This document shows, piece after piece, positions 24,709 through 32,365 of a DNA stretch of 33,516 nt. The DNA is from Candidatus Accumulibacter adjunctus (lineage in GTDB: Bacteria > Pseudomonadota > Gammaproteobacteria > Burkholderiales > Rhodocyclaceae): NCBI GenBank assembly GCA_000585015.1, contig JFAX01000008.1, forward strand, positions 44,362 through 77,877, written 5' to 3'. The notes under the pieces were generated by a model. That model was not told the origin of the DNA, made no database searches, and was given only the letters and a program-made list of their open reading frames with translations. The translations under genes and the position numbers were made by a program. How positions within the stretch are numbered: the stretch's first letter is position 1; the number at the start of each line of letters is the position of its first letter.

Positions 24709-26355
24709 CTACGCCAGCGACGAGGCGAAGCGCACGCGCAAGCGACGCAGCGTCCGTTCGGCGGCGAGGATGCCGCGGTACTGCGCCTCCTCGAACAACG
24801 ATAGGCCGCTGACATCGGCGTGCGCGAAGCGCAGGCGCTCGCCATCGGCGGCAAAGAGCGCGCGGGCGTCGCTCGAGATCAGTCCGGGCAGCGGTCGAAC
24901 CATGGCGTGCGCATTGCGGAAGACGTCGATGCGACTGCTGATCCGCCGGATGTCGGGGTGCGGCTGCTCGAGTTCGGCGAGAATCTGCTCCGCCCAGACC
25001 TCGCGCGGCGTCTCGCGCAGTGCGGCGCGGGCGGCTTCCGGGGCAAGTTCGTCGAAACTCCGGTACCAGGTCAACACGGTTGCGCCCTGCCAGAGGCGCA
25101 TCTGCTGGTGCGTCGCGACGACGTAGCCGAGGCTCCTGCCGCGATGGAGGACGTTGTCCCAGGCCAGCGGCGCGCCGCTGCGCTCCTCCGGCAGCTGCGA
25201 CAGCGTCAGGTTGGCGATCAGCCACGGGGCGTAGCTGTAGCGGCGCGCGGCGTCCTTGAGCCGGGCGTGGCCGCTGAACACCCAGGGGACGAGAAACAGC
25301 GGTGCGGCCCAGATCAGCTGTTCGGCCAGCACGCGCAGCGTCCGCTGTTCGCCCGGCAGCCAGAGGTCGACCGCCAGCGGGCCGCTGCCGCTCTCGCCGC
25401 CCGCGACGCGGAACGCCAGCGCGCCGGTCAGCAGGCGCTGGCCGACGCGCGCCTCGATCGAGCGCAGCATGCCGCTGGTCAGCCAGGCGTTGCCTTCGGG
25501 CGCAGTGAGGACCGTGTCGCTGGCCGCATTCTCCGCCTCGCCGCTGCGGCTGGCGAAGTAGTGAATCCCGGCCCAGGCCGAAACGGCAGCGCTGGCGGTG
25601 CCGTAGTCGTCGCGGCAGGCGTGGTTCACGTACCAGTGCAGCTGCGGCGAATCGAATCCCTGTGCGAGCAGCCAGTCGCGCATGCTGACGCGATCGAGTC
25701 GCAACAGATCCGGGTCGCGGCTCGACAACGCCATCGGCAGCGCGAAGGCCGGTCGGCCGGCGGCGTCACGCCGCTGCGCGAAGGCCGCGATGGTGTCGGT
25801 GAAGCGGCGGTACTGACGGCGCTCGCCGGCACCGACGCCGGTCAGCGGCAGCAGGCCCTCCTGCCAGCGGCCGTCGAGGTAGAGACGCTCCTGCGGCGTC
25901 GCGCAGAGATGGCGTTCGTCGTACGCGGGGCGCGCGGCGCGGACGTCTCCCCGCAGGACGCCGAGTTCCGCCAGCAGTTCACGCACCGCGGTCGACTCGC
26001 GGGTCGGCAGCGGCAGGTAGTGCGCGCCCCAGGGGTAGGCGCTGACGGCGTTGCGACCGGCGCGCGAGTTGCCGCCGGCTTCGGACTCGAGATCGACGAG
26101 CAGGAAATCAGCGAAGCCAGCCTGCGCCAGTTTCCAGCCGGCGGCCAGTCCGCCGACGCCGGCGCCGACGATCAGCACCGGCACCTTGCGCGTTTCGCCG
26201 GCTGCCGGCAGCGCCTGTTCGCGCAGGCGATGGCCGATGTCGAGCGAGGTTCCCAACAGCTCGCCGGGCGGCAAACTCGGCGTCGGGCTGCGGCAGGCGG
26301 CGAGCGAAGCCGCACCGGCGGCGACGATCGAGGCCAGGAAGTCGCGCCGGTCCAT
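24709..26355 (-). CDS. Tat-exported flavin-containing amine-oxidase-like lipoprotein
   Basis: A 548-residue FAD protein of the amine oxidase/phytoene-desaturase class. The N-terminus MDRRDFLASIVAAGAASLAAC has a twin-arginine motif and a lipobox (Cys21), predicting export in folded form and lipid anchoring. The dinucleotide-binding site is VLIVGAGVGGLAAGWKLAQAG (about 59-79), followed by an acidic strand end VDLE and GGNS. The C-terminal FAD-contact region includes LRFAHADVSGLSLFEEAQYRG. It lies 4 bases after the aminopropyltransferase gene and must be cotranscribed with it. Similar pairs are known in conserved polyamine-type clusters; the substrate is unknown. Confidence 0.8.
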   Translation of the reverse strand: MDRRDFLASIVAAGAASLAACRSPTPSLPPGELLGTSLDIGHRLREQALPAAGETRKVPVLIVGAGVGGLAAGWKLAQAGFADFLLVDLESEAGGNSRAGRNAVSAYPWGAHYLPLPTRESTAVRELLAELGVLRGDVRAARPAYDERHLCATPQERLYLDGRWQEGLLPLTGVGAGERRQYRRFTDTIAAFAQRRDAAGRPAFALPMALSSRDPDLLRLDRVSMRDWLLAQGFDSPQLHWYVNHACRDDYGTASAAVSAWAGIHYFASRSGEAENAASDTVLTAPEGNAWLTSGMLRSIEARVGQRLLTGALAFRVAGGESGSGPLAVDLWLPGEQRTLRVLAEQLIWAAPLFLVPWVFSGHARLKDAARRYSYAPWLIANLTLSQLPEERSGAPLAWDNVLHRGRSLGYVVATHQQMRLWQGATVLTWYRSFDELAPEAARAALRETPREVWAEQILAELEQPHPDIRRISSRIDVFRNAHAMVRPLPGLISSDARALFAADGERLRFAHADVSGLSLFEEAQYRGILAAERTLRRLRVRFASSLA

Positions 26356-26359
26356 CGTG

Positions 26360-27859
26360 TCAACGGATCACCTGGCGCCACTCCTGTTCGAAGTAGCGCA
26401 CGAGAACCTGGTTGTTGAGGCGGTTGACCTCGGCGTCGACACGTTCCATGTCGCGCGGGAAGACGAACAGTGCCGGTGTCGTCTCGCGTGTCAGAAAGCG
26501 GGTGTCGACGGCGTAGGACTGCGGCGGCCGGTACGGACGGCGACCGGCGATGACGAAGCCCCACTCGCCGAACGAGGGGACCAGCGCATGGTAGGGCGTT
26601 GCCAGCAGGCCGACGCTTTCCAGCGTCGTGACGATGCACCAGAACGAGCGGCGGGCGTAGAGCGGCGAGGTCGACTGGATCACCGCGAGACCATTCGCTG
26701 CCAGATGTCGGTCGAGCAGACGATAGAACGAAGCGCTGTAGAGCTTGCCAAGCGAGAAGTTGGATGGGTCGGGGAAGTCGACGACGACGAAATCGAAGCT
26801 TTCGTCGTTCTCCTCGAGCCACTGCAGCGCATCGGCATTGATCACCCGCACGCGTGGCGAGTTCAGCGCGTCCTGGTTGAGTTTGCGCAGCGGCGGCGCG
26901 CTGGCGAACAGGCGCGTCATCGCCGGGTCGAGGTCGACGACGACGACGCTTTCGATCTGCGCGTACTTGAGGATCTCGCGTACCGCCAGACCGTCGCCAC
27001 CGCCGAGGACGAGCGCACGCCGCGCCGACGGCAGGGTCGCCAGAGCGGGGTGCACCAGCGCCTCATGGTAGCGGTACTCGTCGCGCGAGCTGAACTGCAG
27101 GTTGTTGTTCAGGTGCAGGCGCAGATCGTCCTTCCAGCGCGTCAGGACGATGCGTTGATAAGGCGTGCTTTCGGTATGGACGATCTCGTCGGCATAGAGC
27201 TGGCTTTCGGCGAGCGTGGTCAGTTCGCCGGCGGCGGCGAATGCGGCGAGCAGCGAGAGCAGCGCGACACCGCCCTGCGCCCGCAGCCAGCCGGCGTTCG
27301 GCACCTGTTCGCGAAACAGCCACCACGTCCAGAGCGCCACGCCGACATTGAGGACGCCGAAGAGCAACGCGCTGCGGATCAGTCCGAGATGCGGCACGAG
27401 CAGGATCGGGAAGAGGATCGATACTGCGAGCGCACCGAGGTAATCGAAGGTGAGTACGTGTGAGACGACGTCGCGGAAGGCCAGGTCGCGTTTGAGGATG
27501 CGCATGACCAGCGGGATCTCGAGGCCGACGAGCACGCCGACGGCGAAGACCACGAGGTAGAGCAGGAGCTGGAACGGCGCCGGTGACCAGGTGAAGGAGA
27601 AGAACAGCAGTGCCGCCGAGAAGCCGCCGAGCACGCCGACCAGCAGCTCGACCTGGATGAAGCGCTGGATGAGCTGCTGGCCGATGTAGCGCGACAGCCA
27701 GGAGCCGACGCCCATGGCGAAGAGGTAGCTGCCGATGACCGTCGAGAACTGCGTCACCGAATCGCCGAGCAGGTAGCTGGCGAGCGTCGCGGCGATCAGT
27801 TCATACGCCAGCCCGCAAGAGGCGATGACGAAGACCGAAAGGAGCAGCGCCCGTTTCAT
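26360..27859 (-). CDS. membrane-fused spermidine synthase-like aminopropyltransferase
   Basis: A 499-residue protein. Residues 1-212 hold about seven hydrophobic helices; residues 220-499 are a spermidine-synthase-type methyltransferase-fold domain. The SAM-type site is ALVLGGGDGLAVREIL (about 282-297), the acidic strand end VVVVDLDPAM, and the catalytic-loop region VVVDFPDPSNFSLGKLYS. The upstream Tyr/His strand is DEYRYHEALVHP. Standard SpeE transfers aminopropyl from decarboxylated SAM to putrescine; the membrane fusion implies a membrane-near acceptor. No speD is nearby. ATG at 27857-27859 was preferred to a TTG 13 codons upstream. Confidence 0.85.
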   Translation of the reverse strand: MKRALLLSVFVIASCGLAYELIAATLASYLLGDSVTQFSTVIGSYLFAMGVGSWLSRYIGQQLIQRFIQVELLVGVLGGFSAALLFFSFTWSPAPFQLLLYLVVFAVGVLVGLEIPLVMRILKRDLAFRDVVSHVLTFDYLGALAVSILFPILLVPHLGLIRSALLFGVLNVGVALWTWWLFREQVPNAGWLRAQGGVALLSLLAAFAAAGELTTLAESQLYADEIVHTESTPYQRIVLTRWKDDLRLHLNNNLQFSSRDEYRYHEALVHPALATLPSARRALVLGGGDGLAVREILKYAQIESVVVVDLDPAMTRLFASAPPLRKLNQDALNSPRVRVINADALQWLEENDESFDFVVVDFPDPSNFSLGKLYSASFYRLLDRHLAANGLAVIQSTSPLYARRSFWCIVTTLESVGLLATPYHALVPSFGEWGFVIAGRRPYRPPQSYAVDTRFLTRETTPALFVFPRDMERVDAEVNRLNNQVLVRYFEQEWRQVIR

Positions 27860-28008
27860 CTTCCGCCGGTGAGCGCAGTGCGCCGGCAGTTGCGACAACG
27901 GTACGCCCTCGCGCCCCTCGCCAGTGCGCGTGCCACCGCCGGCAGACAGCGGCTGGTGGTACGGACGCGCTGGCGGTGTCGTTCGTGGTCGATCGGTGAA
28001 TAGGGCAT
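27856..28008 (-). CDS. doubtful small Arg-rich ORF before the aminopropyltransferase gene
   Basis: A 50-residue frame from ATG 28006-28008 whose TGA overlaps the next gene's ATG (ATGA). It is very Arg-rich and ends in YRCRNCRRTALTGGR, a single C-x2-C pair. No ribosome site is visible, and Arg-rich frames are common shadows in GC-rich DNA. The stop-start overlap is the only argument in favour. Confidence 0.18.
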   Translation of the reverse strand: MPYSPIDHERHRQRVRTTSRCLPAVARALARGARAYRCRNCRRTALTGGR

Positions 28009-28156: not shown

Positions 28157-28750
28157 TCAATACTCCGCTTTCGGCAACCTCTGGGCCAGCTCGTCCCAGC
28201 GGACGGACACCCCCGGCAACACCCCGACTGCCGTTTCCCCGCTCAGCTCGAGGACTTCCGGTTTGCCATACTCGCCATCACGCAGGCGATAGACGGTGAT
28301 CATCCGGTCGATCGGATGGACCAGCCAGTATTCCCGGACCCCGGAGCGTTCGTACACCCGCCGCTTCCACACATGATCGTGGCTGGCGGTCGACGACGAC
28401 GACACTTCCACCACCAGGTCCGGCGCTCCGCGTACGCCGCGGCGGTCGAGGCGAGACGGGTCGCAGACCACCAGGACGTCCGGCTGCACGACCGTATCGA
28501 TCTGGTCGTCGGTCTCGTCGGCCTTCGGCAGGCGGACGTCGACCGGTGCGACGAAGGCGCGGCAGGGTTTCCCTTCCAGGGCCTGCCGGATCTGGAAATA
28601 GATTTCACCGACGACGTCCTGATGTTCCAGCGTCGGCGCCGGAGCCATCAGGTAGGCCGTGCCGTCGATCAGTTCGCAACGACGGTCTTCCGGCCACGCG
28701 AGGTAGTCGGCGTAGGTGTGGTAGCGATCATCGCGAAGTGGCAGGCCCAT
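28157..28750 (-). CDS. Uma2 family (DUF820) putative endonuclease
   Basis: A 197-residue protein of the Uma2/DUF820 group, PD-(D/E)xK-fold nuclease-like proteins common in cyanobacteria and environmental proteobacteria. Typical parts: an N-terminal YHTYADYLAWPEDRRCELIDGTAYLMAPAP, then VQPDVLVVCDP, the core DLVVEVSSSSTASHD with a Lys soon after (VWKRRVYERSGVREYWLV), and a closing LPGVSVRWDEL. Glu-x-(S) and Lys are the likely metal-site residues. Biological role is unknown; these genes often sit in accessory DNA. ATG at 28748-28750 chosen; the upstream extension has no similarity. Confidence 0.85.
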   Translation of the reverse strand: MGLPLRDDRYHTYADYLAWPEDRRCELIDGTAYLMAPAPTLEHQDVVGEIYFQIRQALEGKPCRAFVAPVDVRLPKADETDDQIDTVVQPDVLVVCDPSRLDRRGVRGAPDLVVEVSSSSTASHDHVWKRRVYERSGVREYWLVHPIDRMITVYRLRDGEYGKPEVLELSGETAVGVLPGVSVRWDELAQRLPKAEY

Positions 28751-28784
28751 GCGACCTCTCGTCAATGGCGACGCTGAGCGGCCA

Positions 28785-28790
28785 AGTATA
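28785..28790 (-). promoter_or_regulatory. possible -10 box of the Uma2 gene
   Basis: TATACT reads on the minus strand at 28790-28785, about 35 bases before the start codon. No good -35 lies 17 bp upstream. Confidence 0.25.
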
Positions 28791-28839
28791 GCGCGCCGGA
28801 GAGCCAGGCTGCGAGGTCGATCGGCGCGTCGCCTGGACA

Positions 28840-28875
28840 AGCACGGGCTGGTGTCGCCGACAGACACGCCGTGCT
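28840..28875. repeat. imperfect inverted repeat
   Basis: AGCACGG (28840-28846) pairs with CCGTGCT (28869-28875), and inside it GTGTC (28851-28855) pairs with GACAC (28863-28867), with a 4/1-base internal bulge and a 7-base loop. It lies between the Uma2 promoter region and the ATPase fragment. It may mark the edge of an old insertion or be a terminator-like structure; no T-run follows. Confidence 0.4.
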
Positions 28876-28949
28876 GGATCCGATTCAATGCTTCCTCACC
28901 AGAACACCAACAAAGCCATACAAGTCGCTGGGCTCTCTAGGTGATTTGT

Positions 28950-29168: not shown

Positions 29169-30077
29169 TCAGGTGTGTTTCCCCCGCCACGCTGCCAGCG
29201 CGTCAAGGGACTGCTCGAGTGAAGCGAGGAGTTTCACGCCCGCAACCTCGGGCAGTCGCCTGACGCCGCCACCGCCGGCCCACAGTTCCACGTCGGCGGA
29301 CAGGAGCGTGCGCAACTGCTGCAGCAGTCCGGGGATCTGGCGTTGCGGGAAGGCGACCGAGAACGACAGGGTGACGATGTCGGCGCGGTGAGCGCCGGCG
29401 GCGCTGGCGATCTCAAGCAGCGGCATCTGCGTGCCAAGCGGAATGCACTCGGCGCCTTCGAGCGCGAACAGGGCTTCGGCCATCAGCAGGCCGAGGCCGT
29501 GCAACTCGTCCGGGACGCTGGTGAGAATGATCCGCGGGCTTCGCTTGCCGCCGGGCAGGCTGGCGATCGCCTGGCGCAGCAGGCGCATGGTCAGTTCGGT
29601 GAACAGGTGCTCCTCGAAGACCTCGATGCGGCCCTCCTCCCAGGCTGTGCCGACGAGACGGGTGAGTGGAGCAACGGTGTCCTGCACAAAGCGCACGAGT
29701 CCCTGGCGCGCCAATCTCTGCTGCATCGCCTGTTGATAGCTGCCGCCGTCATGCCGCTTGATCAGCGAAATCAGGTCATCGAGTTCCTCTCCGGCGCTGG
29801 CGCCGGCGACCGCCTGCGGCGGTTGCGGACGCCGCGGCGCCAGCGCGTTCAGTTCTTCGGTGGGGGTGGCCAGCAGTTTGCCGGGCCGGTGCCCGGCATC
29901 CATCAGGCGTTTCACCAAGCGCAGACGTTCCACCTGCTCGGCCGGATAGATGCGCTCGCCATGGTCGTCGCGAGCCGGGGCGGGGAAGCCGTAGCGACGC
30001 TCCCAGACACGCAGGACATCTTTCGACAGGCCCGTGTCGCGTTCGACAGCAGCAATGTTGAAGCCGGTATTGACCAT
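29169..30077 (-). CDS. LitR/CarH-like MerR regulator with cobalamin-binding domain
   Basis: A 302-residue regulator. The MerR helix-turn-helix occupies residues 1-70 (FNIAAVERDTGLSKDVLRVWERRYGFP, then RIYPAEQVERLRLVKRLMDAGHRPGKL). A helical bundle follows with the W-x9-EH motif (TAWEEGRIEVFEEH), then the B12 Rossmann domain with E-x-H-x-x-G (PDELHGLGLLMAEAL). The His there is the expected lower cobalt ligand. The residue after the Trp is Glu; in Thermus CarH it is His132, which caps cobalt after light. ATG at 30075-30077. It is divergent from folE2 with tandem 11-bp repeats between, so it probably represses folE2 and itself, depending on adenosylcobalamin and perhaps light. Confidence 0.88.
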   Translation of the reverse strand: MVNTGFNIAAVERDTGLSKDVLRVWERRYGFPAPARDDHGERIYPAEQVERLRLVKRLMDAGHRPGKLLATPTEELNALAPRRPQPPQAVAGASAGEELDDLISLIKRHDGGSYQQAMQQRLARQGLVRFVQDTVAPLTRLVGTAWEEGRIEVFEEHLFTELTMRLLRQAIASLPGGKRSPRIILTSVPDELHGLGLLMAEALFALEGAECIPLGTQMPLLEIASAAGAHRADIVTLSFSVAFPQRQIPGLLQQLRTLLSADVELWAGGGGVRRLPEVAGVKLLASLEQSLDALAAWRGKHT

Positions 30078-30084
30078 AACTGTC

Positions 30085-30169
30085 CTGTACAAAAGTTTGA
30101 CAAACGCTTGACATCTCGAATCGTGCCCAGTACATTACTGACAAACGAAGCAAATGTCCAGGACAAATT
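30085..30169. promoter_or_regulatory. folE2 promoter with tandem 11-bp repeats, predicted CarH-type operator
   Basis: Three head-to-tail 11-mers run from 30085 to 30117: CTGTACAAAAG, TTTGACAAACG and CTTGACATCTC. The third contains the -35 TTGACA (30108-30113) of a plus promoter with a 17-bp spacer and -10 TACATT (30131-30136). A second array follows: ACTGACAAACG (30137-30147), a degenerate 11-mer, and CAGGACAAATT (30159-30169), covering the likely start site. CarH-type tetramers bind tandem repeats of about 11 bp. TGTCCTGTACA (30081) and the palindrome TGTCCAGGACA (30155) also mark both ends. Confidence 0.7.
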
Positions 30170-30244
30170 TGCGATTGGTTGAACAGGGTCATTGACCAGT
30201 GCCGCAAATGGTTCGACCGTTCCCACCCCCAAGGAGCCCATGCC

Positions 30245-31045
30245 ATGAACGCACCCGAACACTTCTTCCTCGCCGACGTCCAGTCGGCCGCCGACAGCCG
30301 CTGCCTGGCCATCCAGAACGTCGGCGTCAAGGGCTTGCGCTATCCGCTGCAACTCGAGACGGCGAGCGGCGAAGTGACGAACACCGTCGCCAACCTGACC
30401 ATGACCGTCGGCCTGCCGCCCGAAGTCAAGGGCACCCACATGTCGCGCTTCGTCGAACTCCTCGAAGTCCGGCGCGGCGCGCTGACGCAGGATGGCCTGT
30501 TCGCCTTGCTCGCGGAGATGCTGCTGCGCCTCGACGCGACAAGCGGGCGCATCGAGATGAGTTTCCCTTACTTCATCCGCAAGACGGCGCCGGTGTCGGG
30601 TGTCGCAAGCCTGCTCGATTACGACGCCACGCTGATCATCGACCGGCCGCAAGGACAACATGCCGCGCTGACGCTGCGCGTGACCGCGGCGGTGACCAGC
30701 CTCTGCCCCTGCTCGAAGAAGATTTCGGACTACGGCGCGCACAACCAGCGCTCGCACCTCACGCTGGAAGCGAAACTGCGCTCGCCGATGACCATCGAGG
30801 AACTCGTCCGCGTAGCCGAGGAAGAGGCCTCGTGTGAAGTCTTCGGCTTGCTCAAGCGCCCCGACGAGAAGTGGGTCACTGAACGCGCCTACGACAACCC
30901 GAAGTTCGTCGAGGACCTGGTGCGCGACATCGCGCTGCGCCTGATGAGCGAGCCGCGCATCGCCGAATGGAAGGTCACCTCGGAGAACTTCGAGTCGATC
31001 CACAACCACTCGGCCTACGCCGAACTGTTCGGTTCGAACGGATAG
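30245..31045 (+). CDS. folE2: GTP cyclohydrolase FolE2 (type IB)
   Basis: A 266-residue GTP cyclohydrolase of the IB class, which makes dihydroneopterin triphosphate, the first pterin precursor of folate. The IB signature is clear: [14 protein letters not shown] near the start, [10 protein letters not shown] at about 63-72, the Cys-containing block [20 protein letters not shown] at about 155-174, [20 protein letters not shown] and the C-terminal [10 protein letters not shown]. Start at ATG 30245, 9 bases after AAGGAG. It is the first gene of a four-gene run and lies about 100 bases after the predicted transcription start under the 11-mer operator. IB enzymes are less zinc-dependent than FolE. 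Confidence 0.93.
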
Positions 31046-31054
31046 GAGGAAAGC

Positions 31055-32365
31055 ATGCAAGACAGGCAACGCATCGCCGTCGTCGGTGCCGGAATCTCCG
31101 GCCTCGCCACCGCCTGGCTGCTCGGGCGCCGGCACGACGTCACGCTGTTCGAGGCGGGCAGCTATCTCGGCGGCCACACCAACACCGTCGACGTCACGCT
31201 CGAAGGCAGGACGCACCCGGTCGACACCGGCTTCCTCGTCTTCAACGAGAAGACCTATCCGAACCTGATCGCGCTGTTCGCGCTGCTCGGCGTCGACAGC
31301 GTCGAGACCGAGATGTCCTTCGCGGTCAGCCTCGAGAGCCCCGACATCGAGTGGTCGGGCAGCAGCCTCGCCACCATCTTCGGACAGAAGCGCAACCTGA
31401 TGCGCCCACAGTTCTGGACCATGCTGTCCGACATCCTGCGTTTCAACCACGAAAGCGTCGCCTGGCTGCTTGCCTACCCCGACAAGCAGCGCAGCCTGCG
31501 CGATTTCCTCAGCGCCGGTCGTTACTCCGCGGCGTTCTCCGAATGGTACCTGTTGCCGATGGCCGCCGCGATCTGGTCATGCCCGACCGGGCAGATGCTC
31601 GATACGCCGCTTGCCACCTTCGTCCGCTTCTGCCGCAACCACGGCCTGCTGCAGGTCTTCGACCGCCCGCTGTGGCGCACCGTCAAGGGTGGCGGCCGCG
31701 AGTACGTGCGCCGGATCGCCGCGCAACTCGACGACATCCGCCTCGCCTGCCCGGTGGCCTCGGTGACCCGTGAGGGTACCGGACTGCACCTGAGCCATGC
31801 CGGCGGCGGCGAGCACTTCGACCAGGTGGTACTGGCCTGCCACAGCGACCAGGCGCTCGCCATTCTCGGCCTCAATGCCAGCGAGGCGCAGCGCGAAGTG
31901 CTGGCGGCGATCCGCTATCAGCCCAACCGCGCCGTCCTGCACACCGATCGCGCCCTGCTGCCGCGCGACGAGAAACTGTGGTCGGCATGGAACTACACGG
32001 CCGGCAGCGGCACGCCGGGCGAGCAACCGGTGGCGGTTTCCTACCTGATCAACCGCCTGCAGCCGCTGCCTTTCGCGACGCCCGTCGTCGTCACTCTCAA
32101 CCCGGCGCGCGAGCCCGATCCAGCCCGGGTCATCGCCGAGTTCGACTATGCCCACCCGATCTTCGACGGCGCGGCCATCGCCGCGCAGCAGCGACTCGAC
32201 GCAGTGCAGGGCGAGGGCGGCATCTGGCTGGCCGGCGCCTGGGGCAGCTACGGCTTCCACGAAGACGGCCTCAAGTCGGCGCTGCGCGTCGCCAACGCCA
32301 TGGGCATTCGCGCCCCGTGGCAGGGCGAGGCGACGGCGGCCGTCCGCGAACTGGCGAGCGCCTGA
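31055..32365 (+). CDS. COG2907 FAD-dependent oxidoreductase
   Basis: A 436-residue predicted flavoprotein of the amine-oxidase-like COG2907 group. The FAD site is RIAVVGAGISGLATAWLLG (about 6-24), then LFEAGSYLGGHTNTVDV, and the C-terminal WLAGAWGSYGFHEDGLKSALRVANAMG. HPVDTGFLVFNEKTYPNL is characteristic of this group. There is no signal peptide. It starts 9 bases after folE2 behind AGGAGG. In many proteobacteria it is found with DUF1365 and a cyclopropane-synthase homologue, as here, which suggests action on membrane fatty acyl chains (inference from context). Confidence 0.87.
   Translation: MQDRQRIAVVGAGISGLATAWLLGRRHDVTLFEAGSYLGGHTNTVDVTLEGRTHPVDTGFLVFNEKTYPNLIALFALLGVDSVETEMSFAVSLESPDIEWSGSSLATIFGQKRNLMRPQFWTMLSDILRFNHESVAWLLAYPDKQRSLRDFLSAGRYSAAFSEWYLLPMAAAIWSCPTGQMLDTPLATFVRFCRNHGLLQVFDRPLWRTVKGGGREYVRRIAAQLDDIRLACPVASVTREGTGLHLSHAGGGEHFDQVVLACHSDQALAILGLNASEAQREVLAAIRYQPNRAVLHTDRALLPRDEKLWSAWNYTAGSGTPGEQPVAVSYLINRLQPLPFATPVVVTLNPAREPDPARVIAEFDYAHPIFDGAAIAAQQRLDAVQGEGGIWLAGAWGSYGFHEDGLKSALRVANAMGIRAPWQGEATAAVRELASA

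Follow-up and report, generated by a model that had tools for sequence, protein, structure and literature searches.

Positions 30079-30167 of the window, by which we mean the whole 33,516-nucleotide stretch of Candidatus Accumulibacter adjunctus DNA analyzed in this study, most likely form a composite operator of a CarH/LitR-type MerR-B12 dark repressor for a photo-oxidative-stress operon (probability about 0.74), and this operator probably keeps genes that protect against light damage off in the dark. The sites, their conservation and geometry, the gene content of the locus and the joint occurrence of sites and regulator were all observed. The regulator and the elements of the region are:

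29169-30077, minus strand: CarH/LitR-type regulator of 302 amino acids with MerR helix-turn-helix, B12-binding_2 and B12-binding domains (Pfam, phmmer, NCBIfam)
30079-30093, no strand assigned: upstream palindrome IR1, ACTGTCCTGTACAAA in the window and most commonly TTTGTCCTGAACAAA in relatives (conservation profile and counts)
30085-30095, plus strand: direct repeat DR1, CTGTACAAAAG, with TnnACA in 73 of 81 aligned spacers (the window and the best 80 of 119 loci)
30096-30106, plus strand: direct repeat DR2, TTTGACAAACG, an optional 11-bp unit, with TnnACA in 63 of the 81 spacers
30107-30117, plus strand: direct repeat DR3, CTTGACATCTC, which includes the -35, with TTGACA in 77 of the 81 spacers
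30108-30136, plus strand: promoter, with -35 TTGACA at 30108-30113, 17 bp, and -10 TACATT at 30131-30136 (conserved alignment columns)
30140-30145, plus strand: half-site GACAAA at the predicted start site, mostly GAACAAA in relatives, with ACA in 71 of the 81 spacers
30153-30167, TnnACA on the minus strand: downstream palindrome IR2, 15 bp, AATGTCCAGGACAAA in the window, with TGTC at 30155-30158 in all 81 spacers

The core of the operator is a run of three tandem nnnnTnnACAn repeats at 30085-30117, with TnnACA at an identical offset in each. Three or four tandem 11-bp repeats of this form, with the -35 inside one of them, are what characterizes a CarH-type operator, and here the -35 TTGACA falls within DR3. 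An earlier note on this DNA had proposed three contiguous 11-mers at these positions with the -35 embedded in them, and both points are confirmed, with the array being unique in the window and in the genome. It is the sole run of three TnnACA at 11 bp on either strand of the 33.5-kb window (0.01 expected), shuffling the window produced such a run in 1 case out of 100, and the exact triple-repeat pattern has a single match in the organism's own 4.4-Mb genome (93% complete). TTGACA-N17-TACATT was the only promoter-like site detected in 29980-30300, and transcription would start near 30143. On the other side, the regulator ATG lies at 30077 and is separated from DR1 by 7 bases.

CarH operators built of tandem 11-bp repeats have been described in Thermus, Bacillus and myxobacteria, according to the available sections of PMC9304148. 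The crtB-carH spacer of T. thermophilus HB27 contains TGTACAAAAGCTTGACAAAACCTATACA, which is the sole triple in that spacer, and we infer that it is the footprinted operator from the three tandem repeats, one with the -35, described in the same sections (PMC9304148). The 28-mer from the window is identical to the Thermus triple at 23 of 28 positions, and the consensus of its relatives at 20. For comparison, the window's own array displaced by one repeat matched at 17 positions, the best unrelated stretch of the window at 16, and other stretches of the organism's own genome at no more than 17 in 83,550 positions. Both operators have three tandem 11-bp nnnnTnnACAn repeats, a -35 inside one of them and a divergent carH-type gene. 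However, in T. thermophilus TTGACA is in the middle repeat and crtB lies opposite carH, whereas here it is in the third repeat, palindromes bracket the promoter, and the targets are folE2 and ufa genes.

Conservation was assessed in 81 spacers: that of the window and those of 80 loci, the best 80 of 119 at which a scan of genome contigs found a relative of the regulator. The alignment was built without selection for repeats, and four spacers were offset by 13 bases beforehand. The earlier note had asked if the 11-bp periodicity is kept in orthologous litR-folE2 spacers. It is, as exact TnnACA at 11 bp was found three times in 58 of the 81 spacers (best 80 of 119 plus the window), twice in 6, once in 15 and not at all in 2, and of all periods from 7 to 22 only 11 gave a run of three TnnACA in these spacers. 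In 18 of the 81, DR2 is lacking or has degenerated. The most conserved parts were, from 5' to 3', IR1, DR2 (somewhat less), the -35, the -10, GAACAAA and IR2; positions 30115-30121 and 30146-30152 were near random, and 30122-30130 ahead of the -10 was partly conserved.

This profile led to a different view of the downstream half of the region. A second array of 11-bp direct repeats had been proposed at 30137-30169, and this was rejected: plus-strand TnnACA occurs at the three copies in only 6, 1 and 2 of the 81 spacers, and ACA by itself in 71, 1 and 81. What is conserved there is the palindrome IR2, which mostly reads TTTGTCYAGGACAAA in relatives and has TGT-N5-ACA in 81 of 81 spacers. The earlier description therefore stands for the CarH-like array over the -35 and falls for the second array, and it missed the mirror-image palindromes, which are the best-conserved part. 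IR2 is of odd length with A as its central base in 98 of 100 loci, which puts its TnnACA on the minus strand (98 of 100 loci). The central base of IR1 is T in 89 of 98 loci and its TnnACA is on the plus strand in 88 of 98. IR1 and IR2 are thus mirror images that bracket the promoter and point toward it, and in two loci (L077 and L079) both orientations are reversed. The right arm of IR1 is DR1, and the left arm sits at the expected ribosome-binding site of the regulator gene. The window's own palindromes are imperfect, with 3 and 2 mismatches, and the palindrome at no more than 2 mismatches was not enriched in the organism's own genome (11 strand matches, versus 13 for a reversed control). A wider regulon in that genome was rejected on this count and on the single match of the exact repeat pattern. 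The GAACAAA half-site at the predicted start lies 22 bp from the right arm of IR2.

Spacing was measured in 106 non-duplicate loci, comprising the 81 and a further 25 that are more distant (49-73% identity) and came from searching 150 family genomes; L082, L085, L086 and L089 were dropped as duplicates of L011, L028, L039 and L055. Taken between the ACA triplets of IR1 and the -35, the spacing was 22 bp in 80 loci, 11 in 13, 23 in 4 and 26 in 1, with 8 unscored (among the unscored loci is L107, which has almost no upstream DNA). From IR1 to IR2 it was 74 bp in 79 loci, 63 in 10, 75 in 4, 62 in 2, 77 in 1 and 73 in 1 (9 unscored), and from the -35 to IR2 it was 45 in 96 and 44 in 4 (6 unscored). 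These spacings indicate that the upstream part varies by one 11-bp unit, DR2, while the distance from promoter to IR2 is constant; the 13 loci out of 106 whose spacing is 11 bp have no DR2. On a tree of 109 regulators, whose Thermus branch is very long, the 11-versus-22 spacing changed at least twice over 98 rows. The triple gained or lost its intact state more often, 16 times in 85 rows with 23-bp loci counted as non-intact, and the spacing was maintained.

The geometry bears on the most serious alternative, in which the regulator binds chiefly as inverted dimers at IR1 and IR2, in the classical MerR style, and the direct repeats are by-products, DR1 being an arm of IR1 and DR3 being the -35. 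IR2 and IR1 are indeed among the best-conserved elements, and the 13 of 106 loci at 11-bp spacing have no room for DR2. Against it stand the 11-bp phase of IR1 with the -35 (22, 11 or 23 bp in 97 of 98 scored loci), the presence of DR2 in 63 of 81 spacers and the resemblance of the array to the Thermus operator, and we consider this account unlikely. The myxobacterial systems offer a parallel, since the CarA/CarH operators of Myxococcus and Cystobacter also have direct repeats, one with the -35, and Myxococcus has inverted repeats as well, as far as the available text of PMC9304148 goes. That text describes the Myxococcus-type inverted repeats as degenerate in other genera, whereas the palindromes here are among the best-conserved parts. 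It also reports that Cystobacter CarA and CarH recognize direct repeats and not inverted repeats (PMC9304148).

As the earlier note had said, a LitR/CarH-like regulator is encoded alongside. It has MerR and B12 domains and is present in one copy in its own genome. Its MerR_1 (50.2 bits) and B12-binding_2 (28.5 bits) domains score above the Pfam cut-offs, and its best phmmer match to LitR/CarH chains has an E-value of 5e-27. The protein is named CarH/LitR-type here and not filed as CarH because its Pfam B12-binding score (28.3 bits, cut-off 32.1) and its NCBIfam CarH score (115.7 bits, equivalog cut-off 400) fall below the cut-offs. The recognition helix RxWERRYG was found in all 81 regulators (the window and the best 80 of 119) and the Wx9EH motif in 80, the sole miss being the broken frame of L051, a locus that was left out of the tree and the 108-row counts. 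In that locus, from Dechloromonas SSB2 (6001 onward), the regulator frame ends after 88 amino acids and the spacer keeps all three repeats; the break could be a sequencing error. Equivalents of W131, E141, H142 and H177 are present in 108 of 108 relatives; the first three belong to Wx9EH and the last is the lower-axial His. The lower-axial motif D/ExHx2G/P-x41-SxT/V-x22-27-GG reads ELHGLG-41-SFS-27-GG in the window, with Ser replacing T/V, and a relaxed form was found in 79 of 81. Its own genome also encodes a PF01923 adenosyltransferase, for adenosylcobalamin. It is plausible that the regulator is a B12 photoreceptor.

There are some notable differences from T. thermophilus CarH. Where T. thermophilus has His132, the window regulator has Glu. 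None of 108 relatives has His there: 83 carry Glu, 13 Met, 7 Leu, 3 Ala, one Val and one Thr. A His at this place has been described for many CarH proteins, though not for all of them. From the published light signature of GxxW, EH, GxxH and GxxxP, GTAW and EH are present and the GxxH position reads DELH. His132 forms the light-state ligand in T. thermophilus CarH, and the H132A protein was mostly tetrameric after light in one report, whereas an earlier report found disassembly (both as given in the accessible part of PMC10442372). CtMerR, a light-responsive protein, has Arg at this position according to the available part of PMC11796333. This suggests that a light response is possible without His132, although the chemistry here would differ.

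The absence of His132 is one of the arguments for a second alternative, in which the operator is the same and the signal is something other than B12 photolysis, with another sensor steering the regulator as a short LOV protein steers class II LitR. The target genes are also similar to those of Pseudomonas class II LitR. In the available text of PMC9758184, PplR1 and PmlR2 have, as here, one site over the -35 and one after the start, and ufaM of Pseudomonas mendocina is light-induced and lies beside LitR genes. However, those regulators recognize TGTACA-N12-TGTACA, have a LOV partner and are without a full B12 domain, unlike the system in the window. The core B12-binding residues are invariant here (108 of 108), and none of the 81 spacers has a TnnACA pair set 18 bp apart as in PplR sites, so the class II TGTACA-N12-TGTACA arrangement is not seen. 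Short LOV proteins carry a GxNCRFLQ-type motif, and no exact match to it was found in the organism's own genome (93% complete), which leaves no class II LOV partner by this motif. Control by another sensor therefore appears quite improbable, and B12 photolysis is retained as the predicted signal.

The operator also tends to occur together with the regulator. A sequence-only profile, R1, was made from 42 spacers and run on 150 family genomes. Among the 60 regulator-bearing genomes, 48 gave an R1 match immediately upstream of the regulator, although this score is partly circular beside close relatives, which share sequence with R1 since R1 was built on relatives' spacers, and its weight rests on the distant relatives; 12 of 60 had no upstream match. 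In genomes without the regulator, any R1 match was found in 2 of 90, one of them at a contig end before folE2. A stricter pattern requiring TTGACA in the third repeat gave 9 matches in the 150 family genomes, 6 of them beside the regulator, compared to 1 for the reversed control; the matches in G111, G045 and G078, which have no regulator match, are probably due to chance.

Nine R1 matches lay away from the regulator and seven of these were examined, leaving out those in G082 and G013, both below 19 bits. Four of the seven are away from the regulator start and ahead of folE2 (L163), ufaD (L165 and L168) or ufaO (L169), with folE2 following 0.8 kb on from the L163 operator with an open frame between. 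Of the other three, two are at contig ends: L166, which is a regulator spacer, and L164, which lies before folE2. The third, L167, has an FAD oxidoreductase downstream and a divergent SDR gene. The spacing is 22 or 11 bp in each of L163, L165, L166, L168 and L169 (L164 and L167 unscored), and L165 also has a poorer upstream palindrome with a spacing of 24. The L163 operator, at 2674-2763, belongs to a genome of the window's genus (G018), which has one operator at the regulator and this additional one in front of a separate folE2-ufaD locus.

These sites away from the regulator matter for a third explanation, that the conservation reflects a ribosome-binding site and a sigma-70 promoter with no operator at all. 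Such a view is helped by the IR1 left arm lying at the expected ribosome-binding site of the regulator and by DR3 being the -35. However, IR2 is conserved past the promoter, the operator co-occurs with the regulator, and the IR1 geometry is held in L163, L165, L168 and L169, and this explanation is accordingly very improbable. IR1 as a mere ribosome-binding site was rejected because it recurs away from the regulator start. Chance origin of the repeats, which the lack of conservation of the second array as direct repeats might suggest, can be dismissed for the first array since the triple appeared in 0 of 1000 dinucleotide shuffles of the 130-bp window spacer and in 0 of 8100 spacer shuffles, compared to 58 of 81 real spacers.

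The genes downstream of the composite operator are consistent with a function in photo-oxidative stress:

30168-30211, plus strand: leader in which both ends of a lost glutathione-peroxidase-like gene seem to survive as remnants, at 30168-30185 and 30191-30211 (alignment with L003; weaker with L002 and L004)
30245-31045, plus strand: folE2, GTP cyclohydrolase (NCBIfam FolE2 267 bits, cut-off 215; Pfam GCHY-1)
31055-32365, plus strand: FAD oxidoreductase, likely UfaD (Pfam Amino_oxidase; adjoins a DUF1365 gene as in R. sphaeroides, from the available part of PMC7380195)
32373-33146, plus strand: DUF1365 protein, likely UfaO (Pfam DUF1365 254.7 bits; UfaO carries DUF1365, same part of PMC7380195)
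33143-33516, plus strand: start of a CMAS-type methyltransferase, likely UfaM, that runs off the window (the L111 open frame resembles the L013 CMAS by eye)

The UfaD, UfaO and UfaM roles are likely for the window genes, judging by domains and gene order. Furan fatty acids are made in R. sphaeroides by the joint action of the desaturase UfaD, which is related to phytoene desaturases, the DUF1365 protein UfaO and the methylase UfaM (PMC7380195, in part). An FAD oxidoreductase was found near the regulator in 74 of the best 80 of 119 loci, a DUF1365 gene in 71 and folE2 in 37, with short contigs counted, and folE2 is thus an inconstant target. The first gene after the operator is glutathione-peroxidase-like in 52 of the best 80 of 119 loci (GSHPx in L013; with a secretion signal as judged by eye). 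In the close relatives L002, L003 and L004 such a gene lies between IR2 and folE2, and no glutathione peroxidase match was found within the window. Elsewhere in the window, 24709-27898 codes on the minus strand for another FAD-binding protein and for a spermidine-synthase-like protein whose N-terminus is long and hydrophobic as judged by eye, and 28157-28888 holds a Uma2-family putative nuclease gene (Pfam).

The same genes are known from R. sphaeroides, where folE2, RSP_1087-1091 and a fasciclin gene belong to the RpoE singlet-oxygen regulon (available part of PMC7074977). The RpoE-ChrR regulon resembles the locus described here in having folE2 and the ufaD/ufaO operon, and it also includes cfaS and the fasciclin gene (PMC7074977 and PMC7380195, both in part). 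However, that regulon is under a sigma factor and anti-sigma factor, whereas here a MerR-B12 regulator is the proposed controller. In Eleftheria terrae (L129, 3409-3995) both palindromes lie between the regulator gene and a fasciclin-domain gene that is divergent from it.

A model can be proposed in which binding, oligomeric state, B12, light, the direction of control and autorepression are all carried over by analogy from the families named above. In the dark, the adenosylcobalamin-bound regulator would sit head-to-tail on DR1-DR3, like T. thermophilus CarH, covering the -35, and would also occupy the mirror-image site IR2 just past the start site. Occupation of both would keep RNA polymerase off, leaving the folE2-ufaD-ufaO-ufaM promoter closed in the dark, and the regulator would repress its own divergent gene. 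Light would break the Co-C bond and the regulator would release the DNA, after which FolE2 and furan fatty acids would be made against photo-oxidative damage. We counted in favor of this CarH-type dark-repressor reading the 23/28 Thermus match, the triple in 58/81 spacers, the fixed spacing, the co-occurrence, the B12 residues and the gene set. Against it we counted Glu at His132, DELH, the sub-cut-off scores, the DR2 gaps in 18/81, the 12/60 genomes without an upstream match, the imperfect window palindromes, the inconstancy of folE2 and the direct-repeat reading in Cystobacter, the last from a source available in part. A broader proposal is more tentative, and we hold it as a possibility that may well be wrong: that this is a distinct and widespread betaproteobacterial CarH-like light switch, with convergent mirror palindromes, whole 11-bp units between the upstream one and the -35, a photocycle without the His132 ligand, and direct control by light of a part of the singlet-oxygen genes (those for furan fatty acids and often folE2).

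The earlier note had been aware of no account of the operator in this lineage, and none in Rhodocyclales was found in the literature searched, in which the CarH/LitR subscription literature was covered in part. The kind of operator is known, and its layout and the genes it controls look new. As far as the searches show, this applies to the operator in Rhodocyclales, to mirror palindromes with an 11-bp step, and to furan-fatty-acid genes under a full MerR-B12 regulator. If the reading is correct, the natural series of operators differing by one 11-bp unit would allow tests of how CarH-type oligomers read DNA, and the relatives would provide a natural set of regulators without His132, a residue whose need for light release is disputed in the available part of PMC10442372. 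It would also mean that B12 light sensing governs furan-fatty-acid and folE2 genes, not carotenoids, in many Rhodocyclales, and that the Rhodocyclales with B12-light control include relatives of wastewater bacteria.
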